Positions 2,770 through 9,543 of a stretch of DNA of 64,000 nucleotides are shown here, piece by piece. The first letter of the stretch is position 1; each line of letters starts with the position of its first letter. Both the position numbers and the translations under genes were made by a program. The notes under the pieces were generated by a model. It was not told where the DNA came from, did no database searches, and worked only from the letters and a program-made list of their open reading frames with translations. This DNA is from Firmicutes bacterium OM04-13BH (GTDB lineage: Bacteria > Bacillota > Clostridia > Lachnospirales > Lachnospiraceae), in contig QULP01000001.1 of NCBI GenBank assembly GCA_003481745.1, forward strand, positions 434,001 to 498,000. Direction: 5' to 3'.

Positions 2770-3957
2770 TTATGCGCAAGTCGCACATAAGTCCGCATTG
2801 AGCCTAATTAACGTAGATAAGGTGCGCGTTGTTCCCGTACCATACCGAAGATCATTGGCTTCGGCTGGCAACCTTGTCATCACTGACTCGGATTTTAGTA
2901 ATTCTCTGATAAAATATCGTGCTCCGATATTGTAACTCGCGTTTAAGTCGCAATGATAGATCTTTCCGTTTGGGAAGACACAGATGGAATAATTATATTT
3001 TTCTTTTCCGTCCTGCATATACGTGCCACGTTCCACTTTCCCGAAACCATCGAATGCCAGGGCAGACGTTCCCCATGCACAGATTCGACTGACACGAATT
3101 CCACACTTGTGAGCATGATGTTCCACAATACGCTGGATTTCCCGTTTTCTCCAGAGCTGCAGGCGTTGTTTCTTCGAACCTCGTTTTTTGCCGTTGGTAT
3201 CCAAATACTCGAACACAATCACATCCACATTGTACAGAATGGCAAAATCCATGATACCTTTGGCTGTTTTCCGGCTGATGTCCTGGTTAATGTCATTGAC
3301 ACGTTTCCATAAGACCGGTGTTTTGCGATTGCCATGCTGCTGTGCTTTCTTCTGTCTGCCTAATGCTTTGTATAAATGGTCTTTTTCAGTGGCAAAATTA
3401 ATGAATTTTCTTGCCACGACAGTTCCATCACTCTGCATAATGGAGCAGACAGCATTCTGATTGATGCCTAAATCTATTGCACAGATTGTCCTATCCTCAA
3501 TCGCTACATCCTCAAAGGTCACAGCTTTAGCAAATGGAAATACCAAATACCAACACTTGCCACATTTTTTTAGCTTCGGATTCTTCTGTACTGTATTCGG
3601 ATCGGATAAGCAATGTTTCTCAATATACTTCACATCCTGCTTACAAAGTAAAACATCCAACCATACCCAATCCTTGCGGTGATACACCTTGACTCTGGCG
3701 GTATCACTGCCAGTGCGAATGAACATATTCCCTTTGTATAAGGTTGGCATAGCGTTACGTTCATAGGTCAGCTTTGGTTCTTTGCCTTGCTTTCCGTTGT
3801 TGACCCAATTCTCATGATTGGATGCATACGAAGAATACGCTCCAAGGGCTTCCTGAATTGCTGTTCGTCTCAAATAAGCCGGCATCTTATAAGCACACTG
3901 GTTGAAATCATAAGCCGGTTCCGGATTTTTCTTTGTCTGAAGTGTCAAATGTTCCAT
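2770..3957 (-). CDS. tnpB: TnpB-like RNA-guided nuclease of IS605 element, N-terminus missing
   Basis: TnpB proteins are RuvC-fold, RNA-guided nucleases carried by IS200/IS605 elements. The three RuvC segments are visible: IDLGIN (first Asp), FEYLD (Glu) and DLNASYNIGARY (last Asp). The zinc-finger region between the last two has only isolated cysteines (ICAWGTS, ICVFPN, HCDLN) and no CxxC pairs, so this is a finger-less variant. The first residues (EHLTLQTKKN) look like the inside of the family rather than a native N-terminus, and the usual start is absent because the DNA upstream is already tnpA sequence. ATG at 3957 is listed; an in-frame TTG lies at 3984. 395 residues, shorter than usual, probably non-functional. 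Confidence 0.75.
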   Translation of the reverse strand: MEHLTLQTKKNPEPAYDFNQCAYKMPAYLRRTAIQEALGAYSSYASNHENWVNNGKQGKEPKLTYERNAMPTLYKGNMFIRTGSDTARVKVYHRKDWVWLDVLLCKQDVKYIEKHCLSDPNTVQKNPKLKKCGKCWYLVFPFAKAVTFEDVAIEDRTICAIDLGINQNAVCSIMQSDGTVVARKFINFATEKDHLYKALGRQKKAQQHGNRKTPVLWKRVNDINQDISRKTAKGIMDFAILYNVDVIVFEYLDTNGKKRGSKKQRLQLWRKREIQRIVEHHAHKCGIRVSRICAWGTSALAFDGFGKVERGTYMQDGKEKYNYSICVFPNGKIYHCDLNASYNIGARYFIRELLKSESVMTRLPAEANDLRYGTGTTRTLSTLIRLNADLCATCA

Positions 3958-3961
3958 ATAA

Positions 3962-4297
3962 TTGTTGCGTTCTTTTCCAGACAAGACAGAAATATCCGAC
4001 CGGATGAAGGAACTGTCTAGGCAGCTCTGCGAGAAGCATCATGTAACTATACGCTATATGGAGACAGATAAAGATCATATCCATTACATGATTGAAATTC
4101 CGCCAACCATTGCAATTTCTGATTTGGTACGGAATTTGAAAAGCTATACCACCTATCACATCTGGAAATCCTATCCGGATATACTACGGAAACACTTCTG
4201 GAAAGAGCGCACCTTTTGGACAGATGGCTACTTTGCCTGTTCTGTAGGAAATGTATCAGAGCAGATGCTAAAGGAGTACATAGAAAACCAGGGCTAA
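3962..4297 (+). pseudogene. tnpA: TnpA Y1 transposase, 5' truncated
   Basis: About 111 codons of an IS200/IS605 single-strand transposase. The HUH metal-binding motif is present (DHIHYMIEIPP, His-Ile-His), as is the C-terminal nucleophile region (LKEYIENQG, Tyr). The usual N-terminal strand of about 25 residues with the cell-surface-like YHIVW/CPKYRR signature is missing. An in-frame TAA sits immediately upstream at 3959-3961. The first recognisable residues are PDKTEISDRMKEL. It faces away from tnpB and overlaps that gene's possible TTG start, so a deletion appears to have joined the two genes head to head. Confidence 0.75.
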
Positions 4298-4342: not shown

Positions 4343-4452
4343 ATTGCGACAGCATTATTTCAAAGAAATAGTCGTCTATCCAATAAATATTCAGTCAGAA
4401 AACTCATTACATAAACATTCTTTTCTGATGCACATCACTTGAATATCATTCA

Positions 4453-6381
4453 TTATTCATCAGCGTCCTTCGTCACTTCATTTGAAAGGTCAATCTGTAA
4501 TCTTGCAGCCTCAACTGCCGCTCTGCAAACTAATGCATAGTTAGAATCACCGTGTGTCTCTGTGACCTTTTCAAGAAATTTATCAATCTTATCAAGAAAA
4601 TAACCACACTTGACTGTAATCTCATTATCTTTATCACGATAGAATGTTGCGAAATCATCCTGACTACCGATAGTACCAATTACTAATACGTGTCTTGTAG
4701 AAAAAACCTCGGCTTTGCCACAAACCTCGGCTTTGCCACAAACCTCGGCATTACCATAAACTTTGGCATTGCCATAAACTTTGGCATTGCTATAAACCTC
4801 GGCATTGCTATAAACCTTGGCGTTAACGTAAACCTTGGCATCCTCCCAAACTTTGGCATTGCCACAAACCTCGGCATTATCATAAACCTTGGCATCATCC
4901 CAAACTTTGGCATTGTCATAAACTTTGGCATTGCCATAAACTTTGGCATTACCGCAAACTATGGCATTACCATAAACTTTGACATTACTGCAAACTATGG
5001 CATCCTCCCAAACTTTGGCATTGTCATAAACTTTGGCATTACTATAAACCTCGGCATTGCTATAAACCTTGGCGTTACCGTAAACCTTGGCATCATACCA
5101 AACTTTGGCATTGCCACAAACCTCGGCATTATCATAAACCTTGGCATCATCCCAAACTTTGGCATTGTCATAAACTTTGGCATTGCCATAAATTTTGGCA
5201 TTACCGTAAACGTTGGCATTACCGTAAACGTTGGCATTACCGTAAACGTTGGCATCATCCCTAATCTCGGCTTTACCCCGAACCTCGGCTTTACCACAAA
5301 CCCCGGCTTTACCGTAAACCTTGGCATCAGCCCGAACTTTGGCATTGCCATAAATTTGGGCATTACCGTAAACGTTGGCATCCTCACAAACTATGGCATT
5401 ATCGTAAACCTTGGCATCATCCCAAATCTCGGCTTTACCCCGAACCCCGGCTTTACCACAAACCTCGGCTTTACCGTAAACCTTGGCATCAGCCCGAACT
5501 TTGGCATTGCCATAAATTTGGGCATTACCGTAAACGTTGGCATCCTCACAAACTATGGCATTATCGTAAACCTTGGCATCATCCCAAATCTCGGCTTTAC
5601 CCCGAACCCCGGCTTTACCACAAACCTCGGCTTTACCGTAAACCTTGGCATCAGCCCGAACTTTGGCATTGCCATAAATTTGGGCATTACCGTAAACCTC
5701 GGCCTTATCATAAACCTCGGCATTATCATAAATTTGGGCATTGCCACAAACCTCGGCATTGCCACAAACCTCGGCATTATCATAAACCTCGGCATCCTCC
5801 CCAACTTTGGCATTACCGTAAACTTTGGCATTGCCACAAACCTCGGCATTGCCATAAACCCCGGCTTTACCGTAAACCTTGGCATCCTCCCCAACTTTGG
5901 CATTACCGTAAACTATGGCATTGCCACAAACCTCGGCTTTATCCCGAACCTCGGCATTACCGTAAACTATGACATTGCCACAAACCTCGGCATTATCATA
6001 AACCTCGGCATCCTCCCCAACTTTGGCATTACCGTAAACTATGGCATTGCCACAAACCTCGGCTTTATCCTGAACCTTGGCATTCTCCCCAACTTTGGCA
6101 TTACCGTAAACTATGGCATTGCCACAAACCTCGGCTTTATCCCGAACCTCGGCATTACCGTAAACTTTGGCATTACCGTAAACTTTGGCATCGCCATAAA
6201 CCCAAGCATTTTCTTCATGTGAAAGGTTTTCTTCTTTCTCAATCCAGCCGCCAAGTTCACCGATTTCGACAAAACCAAATTTTGCTACCGCTCTGATTCT
6301 GTGAAGTGTAGCTGTTCCAAAAAGTAAATTTATTGTCTTGGTTTCTCCTGTAAATTCAAATTTTTTCATAATTTCATACAT
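4453..6381 (-). CDS. giant hexapeptide-repeat protein, YdcK-like left-handed beta-helix
   Basis: 642 residues. Residues 1-56 form a cap with the motif GELGGWIEKEENLS, closely similar to the N-terminus of E. coli YdcK. Residues about 57-560 are some 83 consecutive six-residue units of the form V-Y-G-N-A-K, with variants C/R/W at the second and D/E/K at the third and fourth positions. This fits the left-handed parallel beta-helix rule (aliphatic at i, small residue at i+4). Residues 561-642 are a non-repetitive C-terminal domain (HVLVIGTIG, CGYFLDKIDKF, ALVCRAAVEAA). No signal peptide or membrane segment is seen, so a cytosolic rod is predicted. AAAGG nine bases before ATG 6381 fixes the start. 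No catalytic residues for an acyltransferase were recognised. The function is unknown. Confidence 0.85.
   Translation of the reverse strand: MYEIMKKFEFTGETKTINLLFGTATLHRIRAVAKFGFVEIGELGGWIEKEENLSHEENAWVYGDAKVYGNAKVYGNAEVRDKAEVCGNAIVYGNAKVGENAKVQDKAEVCGNAIVYGNAKVGEDAEVYDNAEVCGNVIVYGNAEVRDKAEVCGNAIVYGNAKVGEDAKVYGKAGVYGNAEVCGNAKVYGNAKVGEDAEVYDNAEVCGNAEVCGNAQIYDNAEVYDKAEVYGNAQIYGNAKVRADAKVYGKAEVCGKAGVRGKAEIWDDAKVYDNAIVCEDANVYGNAQIYGNAKVRADAKVYGKAEVCGKAGVRGKAEIWDDAKVYDNAIVCEDANVYGNAQIYGNAKVRADAKVYGKAGVCGKAEVRGKAEIRDDANVYGNANVYGNANVYGNAKIYGNAKVYDNAKVWDDAKVYDNAEVCGNAKVWYDAKVYGNAKVYSNAEVYSNAKVYDNAKVWEDAIVCSNVKVYGNAIVCGNAKVYGNAKVYDNAKVWDDAKVYDNAEVCGNAKVWEDAKVYVNAKVYSNAEVYSNAKVYGNAKVYGNAEVCGKAEVCGKAEVFSTRHVLVIGTIGSQDDFATFYRDKDNEITVKCGYFLDKIDKFLEKVTETHGDSNYALVCRAAVEAARLQIDLSNEVTKDADE
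4703..6219. repeat. 18-bp tandem repeat tract coding the hexapeptides
   Basis: About 84 degenerate copies of an 18-bp unit whose plus-strand core is GGCATTRCCRTAAACYT, each coding one hexapeptide on the minus strand. The uninterrupted periodicity leaves several other frames free of stops, which explains long open frames on the plus strand with no ribosome site. Confidence 0.9.
5265..5697. repeat. 162-bp higher-order tandem duplication within the 18-bp tract
   Basis: The block beginning GGCATTGCCATAAATTTGGG occurs at 5341, 5503 and 5665, exactly 162 bp (nine hexapeptides) apart. The first two copies are almost identical and the third diverges after about 32 bases. This looks like recent unequal exchange or slippage that lengthened the beta-helix by whole coils. 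Confidence 0.85.
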
Positions 6382-6474
6382 ATTTTTACTGCCTTTCTAA
6401 GTGTTTGTTTATTTTTTATTTTCTTTCGTTGATATTATATTAGCTAAACATCACATATTCATTTTTATAATATA

Positions 6475-6542: not shown

Positions 6543-7548
6543 CTATGCAAAGATAAACTCAGGGCATCCTGAAAAAGCTTTTCTTATTGCGTCATATGCG
6601 TTATGCCCCTGCTTATGGGCAGTACCGACATAAGACATGATTTTTAGATAATCTCTGGCTCCGTCTTCACTTCTGAAGCAGCCGGATACCTTCGTTTTGA
6701 CCTTTATCATCCTGATATCACGTTCTGCCTGATTGTTATCGAACGGAACCTTGAAGTTATGGATAAAAAGGCAGACTGGTGCCTTGTATTTTTCAAGGCG
6801 CCCTACCAAGGCAAGAATCGAAATGTCCAAGACCCGATTCGGTAATCTTTTGCTTTATTCTGTTTACCGTTTCTGATACAGCATCTGCGCAGAGTTTTAC
6901 CATGTTGCTTATGGTGCCGGTAGCGATCGGGATATTGAACACACCAGAGAGAATCTCATGGGTTCTTTTTACGCTGACTGCTCCGACTGTATTTAAAGCC
7001 ACAGATAATGCCTGCAGATTTTCGCCATACTGCACAGTCGCCTTCACATTCGTAGGAAATGCCCCTTTTCTGGTATCTTCGTGAAGCATACAGATTGGAA
7101 TTTCAAGCAGCTGATGTTCGGTTACATTCACAGTAACAACAGCATCAATGACATGACGTTTTTCTGCAATACAAGCAGTTCCCTTGCACATTTTGTAATG
7201 AGGGCAGCCTTCACAGGCAGATGGCATGTGTTTCACAATCTCATCCGGATCAGAAATGACAGCCAGATGTGTTCCTTGATGTCCGTCCTGCCCGCCAACC
7301 TTCTTTCCGGAAGATTTGCGTAAACTTTTTGGCGCAGGCTTTTTGAACCCGTCACTTGATGGTGGTTTGGAACTGTTTTTGGAGTTTTTATTGAGTCGTT
7401 CTTTCAGTTCCTGGATGGTCTGATTAAGTTGGGCAATGAGAGCTGTCTGTGCATCAAATGATTGCTGCAGAGAATTTAAAGCCATTGTCAAGGAATTGAG
7501 CTGCATAAGCAGTTGTTTAATCATTTCGTCCTTTGTCAAACAGACCAC
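6543..7548 (-). pseudogene. tnpC: IS66 transposase TnpC, internal deletion plus frame change
   Basis: The 5' part (7548-6793) has a leucine-zipper-like coiled coil, the NSKNSSKPPSSDGF linker and a zinc-binding segment (CEGCPHYKMC), then runs to the first catalytic region HFD. Directly after the codons for HFD the sequence jumps to ILALVGRLEKYK in another frame. It continues through the last catalytic motif, DNNQAERDIR with Glu, to the C-terminal domain (6543). The intact end at 9243-9297 shows the missing junction residues GRKKKGKILALV, so most of the DDE core is gone. The join is at GATTCTTGCC, consistent with short-homology deletion. GTG 7548 or TTG 7539 could be the original start. Confidence 0.85.
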
Positions 7549-8168: not shown

Positions 8169-8648
8169 TCAAAACATCATATTATTGTTTATATGCGCTC
8201 TTACTGTGTCAGCCGGTACCTCTCTCGACACTCCAATGTAGTAGCGAAGCCAGCAGTCACAGAAATAATCATTTTCATAAGTATAAATCGAAAAATCACC
8301 AGCAAACTGCGCCAGTATTTCACTTTCTTTCGAATCGTCAGGAAAAATTTCTTCATTCATATGTTTTATAATAAAGTCTTTGTCCATATATATCTGGAAT
8401 TCTATAAACCAGTCCGTCTCAATACATTCCTGACCCGTATCATACCCTTTTTCCAAACGTCCATATTTTGAAATTTCTGCATATTCCGTCTCCTTTCCGG
8501 ATCGGACAAAAAAGAATTCACATTCTTTAATTGCATTATAAAATTCTGTAATTTTGCGGTTTACTTCCTGCCAGTCTGTCCCTCTCATATACCCCAATAA
8601 CCTCCTCAATCGTTTGATTTCCGTCACCTGCCATCTGTATCTATCCAT
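8169..8648 (-). CDS. hypothetical protein, 159 residues, small and acidic
   Basis: Not recognised. The protein has an amphipathic basic N-terminus (EIKRLRRLLGYMRG), a central acidic region rich in aromatic residues (ETDWFIEFQIYMDKDF) and a C-terminal YENDYFCDCWLRYYIG segment. It has no membrane segment or signal peptide. Size and acidic, aromatic make-up recall single-domain immunity proteins of toxin systems, but no toxin gene remains next to it. Start ATG 8648 has only a weak GAAAAAAGAAA upstream, and the preceding DNA is decapitated tnpB, so the native promoter may be lost. It ends in TGA, followed in frame by the Abi-like fragment. It is the only intact non-IS coding frame inside the IS66-bounded segment. 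Confidence 0.55.
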   Translation of the reverse strand: MDRYRWQVTEIKRLRRLLGYMRGTDWQEVNRKITEFYNAIKECEFFFVRSGKETEYAEISKYGRLEKGYDTGQECIETDWFIEFQIYMDKDFIIKHMNEEIFPDDSKESEILAQFAGDFSIYTYENDYFCDCWLRYYIGVSREVPADTVRAHINNNMMF

Positions 8649-8689
8649 TTTCTTTTTTCAGTTTCTGATTCTTTCTCAGAGGTAAGGAT

Positions 8690-9195
8690 CACACTGGTGA
8701 TCTCTTTCTCCCTGCAATACTCCACAATGTATCTGGTAATCTTATGGAGATAGTCTTTGACTGCCTGTCTTTTCTTTCTGTGAAGCCTGCGGATATGTCC
8801 GGATGTCTTCGGATAACGGATCCCCTGTCCAGTCTGCTGGCTGTACCACTGGGACTGTACCCTTGCGATCTCTTTATGATAATAATGGCACAGGGAGAGA
8901 TATTTTCTTCCAAAAATAAAAGATGCCCCATTTTCCGAATCATAGCAGGTCATCAGATTATGCAGTCCCAGATCAATAGAAAGATAATGTCCATTATCCG
9001 GCTTTAATCCTGCGTCCTCCCTTTCATAAACTACAATAACCTCACAGACACCATTTTGCGGCGGGGCAATACAAATCTGTTTGATATGGTCCATGTTCCT
9101 GAAAATGGCATTTTCAAGATATAAAAAGCGGACATGTATCCCATACTTTCTTCCATATAGATCTTAAGCTGTTTCGGCAGGGACAGACGCATCTC
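8690..9195 (-). pseudogene. tnpB: tnpB fragment of an IS200/IS605-type element
   Basis: Reading leftward from about 9195, the frame with FEMRLSLPKQLKIYMEESMG is continued, after a frame change near 9140, by IHVRFLYLENAIF and IKQICIAPPQNGVCEVIVVYE. Then come the first RuvC motif IDLGLHNLMTCYD and the helical region REIARVQSQWY-like to EYCREKEITSVI. The homology stops near 8695, before the GD-rich Glu motif, the zinc finger and the last Asp. Both ends are therefore lost and a frameshift is present. At the right it abuts IS66 sequence; at the left it runs into the 159-residue ORF. This is a different TnpB lineage from the one at 2770-3957. Confidence 0.75.
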
Positions 9196-9207: not shown

Positions 9208-9543
9208 GAAGGGAATCCTCTTCCGGTTGCCACGGAGAAAAAACGTGGCCGGAAGAAAAAAGGAAAGATTCTTGCCTTGGTAGGGCGCCTTGAAAAATAC
9301 AAGGCACCAGTCTGCCTTTTTATCCATAACTTCAAGGTTCCGTTCGATAACAATCAGGCAGAACGTGATATCAGGATGATAAAGGTCAAAACGAAGGTAT
9401 CCGGCTGCTTCAGAAGTGAAGACGGAGCCAGAGATTATCTAAAAATCATGTCTTATGTCGGTACTGCCCATAAGCAGGGGCATAACGCATATGACGCAAT
9501 AAGAAAAGCTTTTTCAGGATGCCCTGAGTTTATCTTTGCATAG
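9208..9543 (+). pseudogene. tnpC: 3' end of an IS66 transposase gene
   Basis: Begins abruptly at the codons for GNPLP and continues in one frame through KKRGRKKKGKILALV and DNNQAERDIR (last catalytic Glu) to the C-terminal CPEFIFA. From about 9264 it is identical at protein level to the 3' part of the copy at 6543-6813, but on the opposite strand. No start, zinc finger or first catalytic Asp is present. Confidence 0.85.

Follow-up and report, generated by a model that had tools for sequence, protein, structure and literature searches.

A YdcK-like hexapeptide beta-solenoid gene, probably a prophage remnant, with a C-terminal domain that recurs on other repeat arrays of phages

The stretch of DNA analysed here (the window) comprises 64,000 nucleotides of contig QULP01000001.1 of Firmicutes bacterium OM04-13BH, a member of the Lachnospiraceae, and carries a minus-strand gene for a YdcK-like beta-solenoid protein of 642 residues (Table 1). 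A first-pass annotation, made from the letters alone, had described about 83 uninterrupted hexapeptides (some 500 residues, near 28 coils) between a distinct YdcK-like cap and a separate C-terminal domain, and this anatomy is borne out. The protein consists of an N-terminal cap (N-cap), a solenoid array of 84 hexapeptides and a non-repeat C-terminal domain (C-domain). The hexapeptides, mostly of the form A-x-V-x-G-N, keep their phase throughout residues 59-562, with zero insertions or deletions between consecutive units, and make up exactly 28 turns of 18 residues. Tandem Repeats Finder (TRF) reports an 18-bp unit in 83.3 copies for the gene (73% matches, 0% indels) and a super-period of 162 bp, equal to three coils, in 8.6 copies for the array; this periodicity is far from chance. 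Alanine is retained at 82 of the 84 repeat positions, where the codon is GCC in 81/84, and the third position is encoded by GTT in 76/84 and by ATT (Ile) in 8/84. An exact 232-bp block is duplicated within the array at a shift of nine units. Because the 18-bp unit lacks stop codons, each strand of the array has one frame that is open throughout, and a 510-residue open reading frame (ORF) on the plus strand opposite the gene (window 4690-6222) is an artefact of this. The family's start codon is probably Met5. No signal peptide or anchor was seen in residues 1-58 by reading alone, with no predictor.

Table 1. Features of the solenoid gene and its surroundings in the window.
Feature	Position	Strand	Basis or remarks
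Gene for 642-residue YdcK-like beta-solenoid protein	4453..6381	-	ORF list, stop codon 4453-4455; Pfam PF18836, PHROG 7964
N-cap, residues 1-58, with GELGGWIEKEENLS at residues 41-54	6208..6381	-	Sequence reading; relatives sharing the N-cap
84 uninterrupted hexapeptides, residues 59-562, 28 coils	4696..6207	-	Sequence reading and TRF
C-domain, residues 563-642, non-repeat, 80 residues	4456..4695	-	PHROG 20532 (1.8e-10); AlphaFold2
Tyr594, Cys in relatives (GC[FWC])	4600..4602	-	Comparison with C-domain relatives
Candidate ribosome-binding site AGAAAGGCAG	6389..6398	-	Read from sequence
Flanking IS200/IS605-type element	2770..4297	.	Transposase 3962-4297, + strand (PF01797, Y1 transposase); 404-residue ORF 2770-3984, - strand
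Flanking broken IS66 transposase	6543..7548	-	PF03050 and DUF6444
IS66 piece	9277-9543	+	Pfam scan
IS605 OrfB piece	8624-9094		Pfam scan
Stub of the downstream phage SNF2-helicase gene	4433..4452	-	17/20 nt identical to L103 directly 3' of the stop

The protein is a member of the YdcK-like beta-solenoids, a known kind of protein that is common in phages. Pfam identifies the YdcK solenoid repeat (PF18836; 2.4e-29, 99.1 bits against a cut-off of 30) and Hexapep (1.7e-21), and PHROG 7964 (E 1.2e-295) and PHROG 5070 (E 5e-196) span the cap and coils. The best solved relative found by phmmer is YdcK (PDB 2f9c/2pig; E 1e-16, residues 25-307); the alignment to 2f9c begins at residue 25 and takes in GGW, both glycines of which are invariant in 37 aligned rows. 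YdcK of Salmonella (PF18836, NF040481) is alike in N-cap and hexapeptide solenoid, but the window array is much longer and perfectly regular, and the window C-domain is matched by none of the Pfam models. Because the NCBIfam model for YdcK, NF040481, scores 190.9 bits, under its cut-off of 350, the protein is not a YdcK equivalog. Its cap, coils and C-domain match the profiles of the phage families PHROG 7964, 5070 and 20532, the last of which already catches the C-domain without a function or a name. Annotated phage relatives include Sfi19 orf229, likened by cap and coils, and phiRM10 gp34, likened by cap, coils and C-domain, both compared by these parts rather than by PHROG membership of their own. 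The phage link suggested by the first-pass annotation is thereby upheld, whereas its description of the protein as undescribed holds for the function, which PHROG 7964 and 5070 leave unannotated, and fails for the family, which PF18836 and these PHROGs catalogue. Hexapep and LpxD/LpxA models match the repeats, as would suit a hexapeptide acyltransferase, although the NCBIfam ones all remain below their cut-offs; with no histidine anywhere in the 504-residue array by composition, no inserted loop and an unbroken period, as had been noticed at first pass, the chance that the protein is such an enzyme is negligible.

Relatives of the N-cap are found in 65 of 50,697 phage records at E 1e-3 and in 12 of 72,556 plasmids; viral contigs hold 65 such loci and genome contigs 37. 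Among 397 genomes of the family to which G004 belongs (a Lachnospiraceae bacterium whose genome carries L069), a probe joining both end domains matches 19 at E 1e-3 and the C-domain profile matches 7 at E 1e-4, a sporadic spread of the kind expected of a mobile gene. A study of prophage and repeat loci describes an 18-bp/hexapeptide array at the prophage locus CLIBASIA_05650 of Ca. Liberibacter asiaticus, with 18 versus 22 hexapeptides between strains; its likeness to the window array is one of repeat-unit description (PMC3296602). Several cap-bearing solenoid genes of different lengths lie close together in one element at L045, L026, L113 (plasmid pBT01) and L115 (phage LfeInf). In the genomes of the family searched, members of a cap-bearing subfamily (L127-L129, L131-L133 and L144) repeatedly have an N6/N4 DNA methyltransferase and a conserved unknown protein as neighbours; those that were read lack the C-domain of the window protein. 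P0011 and L094 fuse a YdcK-type cap and coils to MORN-like repeats, and P0011 also lists PF18819, which we take to be of MuF type.

The C-domain also occurs at the end of repeat arrays other than hexapeptides. In the window protein, AlphaFold2 (AF2) models it as four strands and two helices, with a mean predicted local distance difference test (pLDDT) score of 91-94 over residues 581-630. Searches with the C-domain of the relative L087 matched EBPR siphovirus 1 gp3 (E 1e-5) and Listeria phage LWP01 (E 8e-3, 59% of the query), and those with L040, which bears a second C-domain type, matched Caulobacter phage Jess A (46% over 68 residues, E 7e-16) together with Rheinheimera and Acinetobacter phages (139 records, of which Rheinheimera accounts for 111). 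Pfam finds pentapeptide repeats in all five proteins read (EBPR gp3, LWP01, Jess A, Barba8S gp045 and Acba_23). A scan of viral contigs with the C-domain alignment A7 gave 148 relatives; the best 80 of 148 were sorted by script into 57 hexapeptide proteins (a cap could be recognised in 41), seven pentapeptide proteins and 16 others, proportions that are biased towards hexapeptide proteins because the scan patterns were derived from these. By eye, the 16 comprise ten cysteine (Cys) arrays, in which Cys stands at every third residue or in CSxLxD units, four short or contig-cut hexapeptide proteins, one contig-cut pentapeptide protein and one without repeats. The set includes the near-copies L171/L173, L207/L208 and L217/L218/L229.

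A hidden Markov model (HMM) built from 62 hexapeptide-type C-domains only recovers all 21 non-hexapeptide C-domains (10 pentapeptide, 10 Cys and one without repeats; 19 from the viral-contig scan and two from the earlier L087 and L040 searches) at 54-93 bits, against 9.8 for the best of 1050 shuffles; these scores measure the strength of the likeness rather than constituting an independent find, since the 21 were picked by tblastn similarity to hexapeptide ones. A tree of 70 C-domains, with 75 columns only and near-copies included, implies five changes for pentapeptide and two for Cys arrays, of which well-supported branches force at least three and at least two. N-termini differ between the rod types. 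The pentapeptide phage proteins (L171, L172, L200, L213 and EBPR siphovirus 1 gp3) have the same C-domain and a phage origin but a pentapeptide rod (PF00805 in 4/5, the ones scanned; L172 by reading) and another N-terminus, and the Cys-x-x phage proteins (PHROG 15341; L207, L214 and L217) differ likewise by Cys at every third residue and another N-terminus. The Cys arrays have no Pfam match in the 6/10 scanned and no NCBIfam match in the three scanned; the four scanned against PHROG match 15341 and 20532. This sharing lay beyond what the first-pass annotation, whose interpretation is partly supported, could see.

Two further observations concern end domains and arrays of this kind. At L214:2392-3189, as in L207, L208, L215, L217, L218 and L229, phage proteins of up to 52 Cys-x-x tripeptide units end in the window-type C-domain. 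A second end domain common to two rod types, DUF7666 (PF24703), sits on a hexapeptide solenoid (P0008) and on an NTG-type pentapeptide protein (L153:1889-2866).

Over most of the array of the window protein AF2 predicts a solenoid (pLDDT 71.7, predicted template modelling score 0.50), which at an assumed 4.8 Å per coil would measure about 134 Å over its 28 coils. The left hand expected at first pass would follow from homology to YdcK. An AF2 model of the relative L071, on which the structural comparison was made, fits bactofilin (PF04519, PDB 2n3d) better, at 2.4 Å over 103 residues, and antigen 43 also at a root-mean-square deviation of about 2.4 Å, while YdcK and LpxA-like chains superpose at about 10-12 Å only, so that the window solenoid may have either hand. 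Bactofilin is a right-handed, triangular beta-helix that is not known to have a strict hexapeptide code or such end domains. One report, which calls YdcK LpxA-like, uses it as the template for left-handed models of a bactofilin (PMC4372379). End-to-end polymerisation into a filament or scaffold, as in bactofilin, would accord with the fit of the L071 model and with a Pfam Bactofilin match above its cut-off (53.7 against 27.9 bits), but the Hexapep and YdcK models score better and folded caps at both ends would hinder stacking, making this explanation quite improbable.

In length the window array stands apart from those of its relatives. The 143 complete ORFs found with the cap query (from 145 loci) have a median of 19 hexapeptides and a maximum of 70 by a lenient count. 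By pattern, 119 proteins including the window one carry both the cap and a GCF-type C-domain; the other 118, which are homologues keeping both end domains, have 4-32 hexapeptides, compared with 87 in the window protein by the lenient rule used for the 119 and 84 by a strict rule. A search of a large protein database with the cap region, which depends on shared 5-residue words and a limited length range and is not exhaustive, returned eight proteins, between 354 and 678 residues long; at the upper end are a duplicated module (538 residues) and a fusion with other domains (678 residues), which exceed the other six. Lengths vary by whole hexapeptides: P0012-P0019, with an identical C-domain and nearly identical cap, measure 150, 156 (four proteins), 162, 174 and 192. 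Across the 119 proteins the spacing from cap to C-domain clusters modulo 6 (72, 36 and 11), and in the largest class of 72 it is spread evenly modulo 18 (26/24/22; p 0.85 for proteins that are not independent), so that in that class the ends have no fixed angle to each other. Codon uniformity at the Ala and Val positions reaches medians of 0.93 and 0.95 among 73 arrays of at least 15 units including the window's, as expected if arrays keep being rebuilt from few units.

Other relatives display rearrangements of these parts. The arrays of phage phiST1 (L114:5093-6203) and L148 are open in more than one frame, and the frame that encodes the cap is not the one that encodes the C-domain. In P0001 and P0002 a phage protein of about 300 residues runs into the final hexapeptides and the C-domain, as though a deletion had joined neighbouring genes; the homologue of the 300-residue part in L004 has no Pfam match, and in L219 this protein is the upstream neighbour of the solenoid gene.

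The closest kin of the window gene, L001 and L103, lie on two contigs of one genome. L001 ends inside the array after an N-cap that is 88% identical to the window's in amino acids (145/156 nt), and L103 starts inside an array and continues into a C-domain with 27 differences from the window's over 204 nt; we infer that both derive from a single gene that the assembly divided. L001 carries an integrase and an HTH_3 regulator, and L103 has an SNF2 helicase directly downstream, followed by proteins with HD and AAA matches below Pfam cut-offs. Since these kin adjoin integrase, regulator and helicase genes, since the beginning of the helicase gene is preserved in the window at 17/20 nt (binomial p about 5e-7, taking 0.30 per base) and since insertion sequence (IS) pieces lie on both sides, the window gene is probably a prophage remnant, a state that we regard as well supported. 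The IS-rich setting recorded at first pass is confirmed by the PF01797 transposase, the IS66 pieces and the IS605 OrfB piece. The 404-residue ORF of the flanking element, for which there is no Pfam match, is presumably TnpB-like, and the IS66 transposase fragments at 6543-6830 (minus strand) and 9277-9543 (plus strand) are nearly identical in opposite orientation. A proposed promoter of the gene's own found no backing: the best upstream match is 9/12, and although the stretch scanned has 20 promoter-like matches, compared with 7.1 in shuffles, 13 of these fall inside the repeats.

Gene context was read at 12 annotated loci (11 phages and one plasmid) out of the 77 records that the cap search had yielded. 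Within about 6 kb, 9/12 have an annotated gene for replication or recombination, namely in eight of the 11 phages and the plasmid (phiRM10, Sfi19, Pd_22F, 587AP2, Boilgate, CP1, pBT01, phiST1 and LfeInf); none is annotated in the stretch read for BF10P2, Vibrio 1.034.O and IW-1. The structural or adhesive role suggested at first pass is left without support by these 9/12 loci. A virion or surface fibre, or an adhesin, would fit the rod-like form, the Foldseek matches to tailspikes and autotransporters, which are weak and all above E 0.001, and the terminase or tail gene present in the stretch at 3/12 loci (Pd_22F, IW-1 and CP1), but the relatives lie mostly beside replication or recombination genes and the N-terminus lacks a visible signal peptide or anchor, so that such a role is very improbable. 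At L109:4318-4638 (Vibrio phage 1.034.O), the annotation records the hexapeptide array of a coding gene as five CRISPR spacers, which looks like an artefact of the tandem repeat.

The early-region position, the pentapeptide relatives with the same C-domain and the proximity of several relatives to DNA methyltransferase or restriction-modification genes could also be explained if the rod itself mimicked DNA or another polymer, protecting phage DNA or blocking a host enzyme. The pentapeptide proteins MfpA and Qnr mimic DNA towards gyrase. The arrays, however, are near neutral and variable in net charge per 100 residues (hexapeptide -4.3 +/- 5.4 in 57 arrays, pentapeptide -3.3 +/- 4.7 in seven, Cys -0.9 +/- 2.2 in ten, window -1.8) and give no uniform charge signal, rod length varies freely and the Cys arrays do not resemble mimics of the same object; mimicry is therefore unlikely.

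One feature sets the window C-domain itself apart. Its GYF motif replaces GC[FWC], in which the Cys is present in the 8/8 nearest C-domains compared and in 80/80 loci (the best 80 of 148), a count that is not unbiased since one of the two search patterns contains that Cys. Given this replacement, an operon cut by IS elements and an array that is the longest of those compared, relaxed constraint is plausible and the window copy may be decaying. On a rival reading the array is a minisatellite that expands neutrally while the gene decays, and its 28-coil rod has no selected function. The outlier length, the near-uniform Ala and Val codons, the lost Cys and the orphan position among IS pieces would all suit it; near-uniform codons are usual in the family, however, and so do not single out the window gene, and the frame is intact over 643 codons with the repeat alanines almost all in place. 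We consider a purely neutral array rather doubtful.

The explanation that we favour, to which we give a little less than an even chance, is that the gene is left over from an early cassette of a temperate phage, the C-domain being a dock and the solenoid an exchangeable, length-tolerant arm. The product combines a YdcK-type N-cap, the 28-coil solenoid and a C-domain that is small and of alpha/beta type. The C-domain is taken as the dock, where present, because it stays constant over different rods, caps and phages; it would be the docking or working part, binding a putative partner in the phage replication or recombination zone, or a host factor there, the place being suggested by gene context. 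The solenoid would serve as arm or scaffold, its length drifting by slippage or unequal exchange of 18-bp units, and relaxed constraint on the window copy would let its array outgrow the relatives' range.

Several points weigh against this explanation, beyond the way in which the 21 C-domains were picked and the shortness of the tree alignment. The confidence of the AF2 model of the window protein is modest. The short helicase stub is one, since local alignment over 150 nt downstream of the stop reaches a score of 28, barely above the top score of 26 among 200 shuffles; upstream, the window has no similarity to L001 or L002. Gene neighbourhood, with terminase or tail genes also present at some loci, is weak evidence of function. 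The GCF and the second, Gram-negative GCQ types of C-domain are linked by hhalign with a probability of 20.9% (E 0.0011), by which they are not established as one family, and in a simple motif test a GC-type C-domain is found in 49 of 111 distinct capped proteins, the rest having other tails or ending soon after the array, so the cap-and-coil part also lives without the C-domain. The intact frame and the low ratios of nonsynonymous to synonymous substitution, about 0.14 for the C-domain against L103 (0.072/0.508) and about 0.30 for the N-cap against L001 (0.051/0.168), speak against simple decay, although much of this constraint may lie on the other branch.

More broadly, and more tentatively still, phages may have in common a small docking domain at the C-terminus, fused again and again to arms of unrelated kinds (left-handed-type hexapeptide, right-handed pentapeptide and Cys-x-x), giving early proteins with an exchangeable, length-variable rod in which the domain, not the rod, would define function; the window gene with its 84 hexapeptides would be an extreme, orphaned member. 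Names based on the repeats, such as 'pentapeptide', 'putative acyltransferase' and 'polymer-forming cytoskeletal protein', scatter one phage family over several labels, and if the end domain is what matters these proteins would form one functional class, testable with a single domain. The shifting of repeat number by whole hexapeptides in a near-identical protein is a useful case of solenoid growth, and the natural swaps of rod type would, if this picture is true, be ready-made experiments on the role of the rod.

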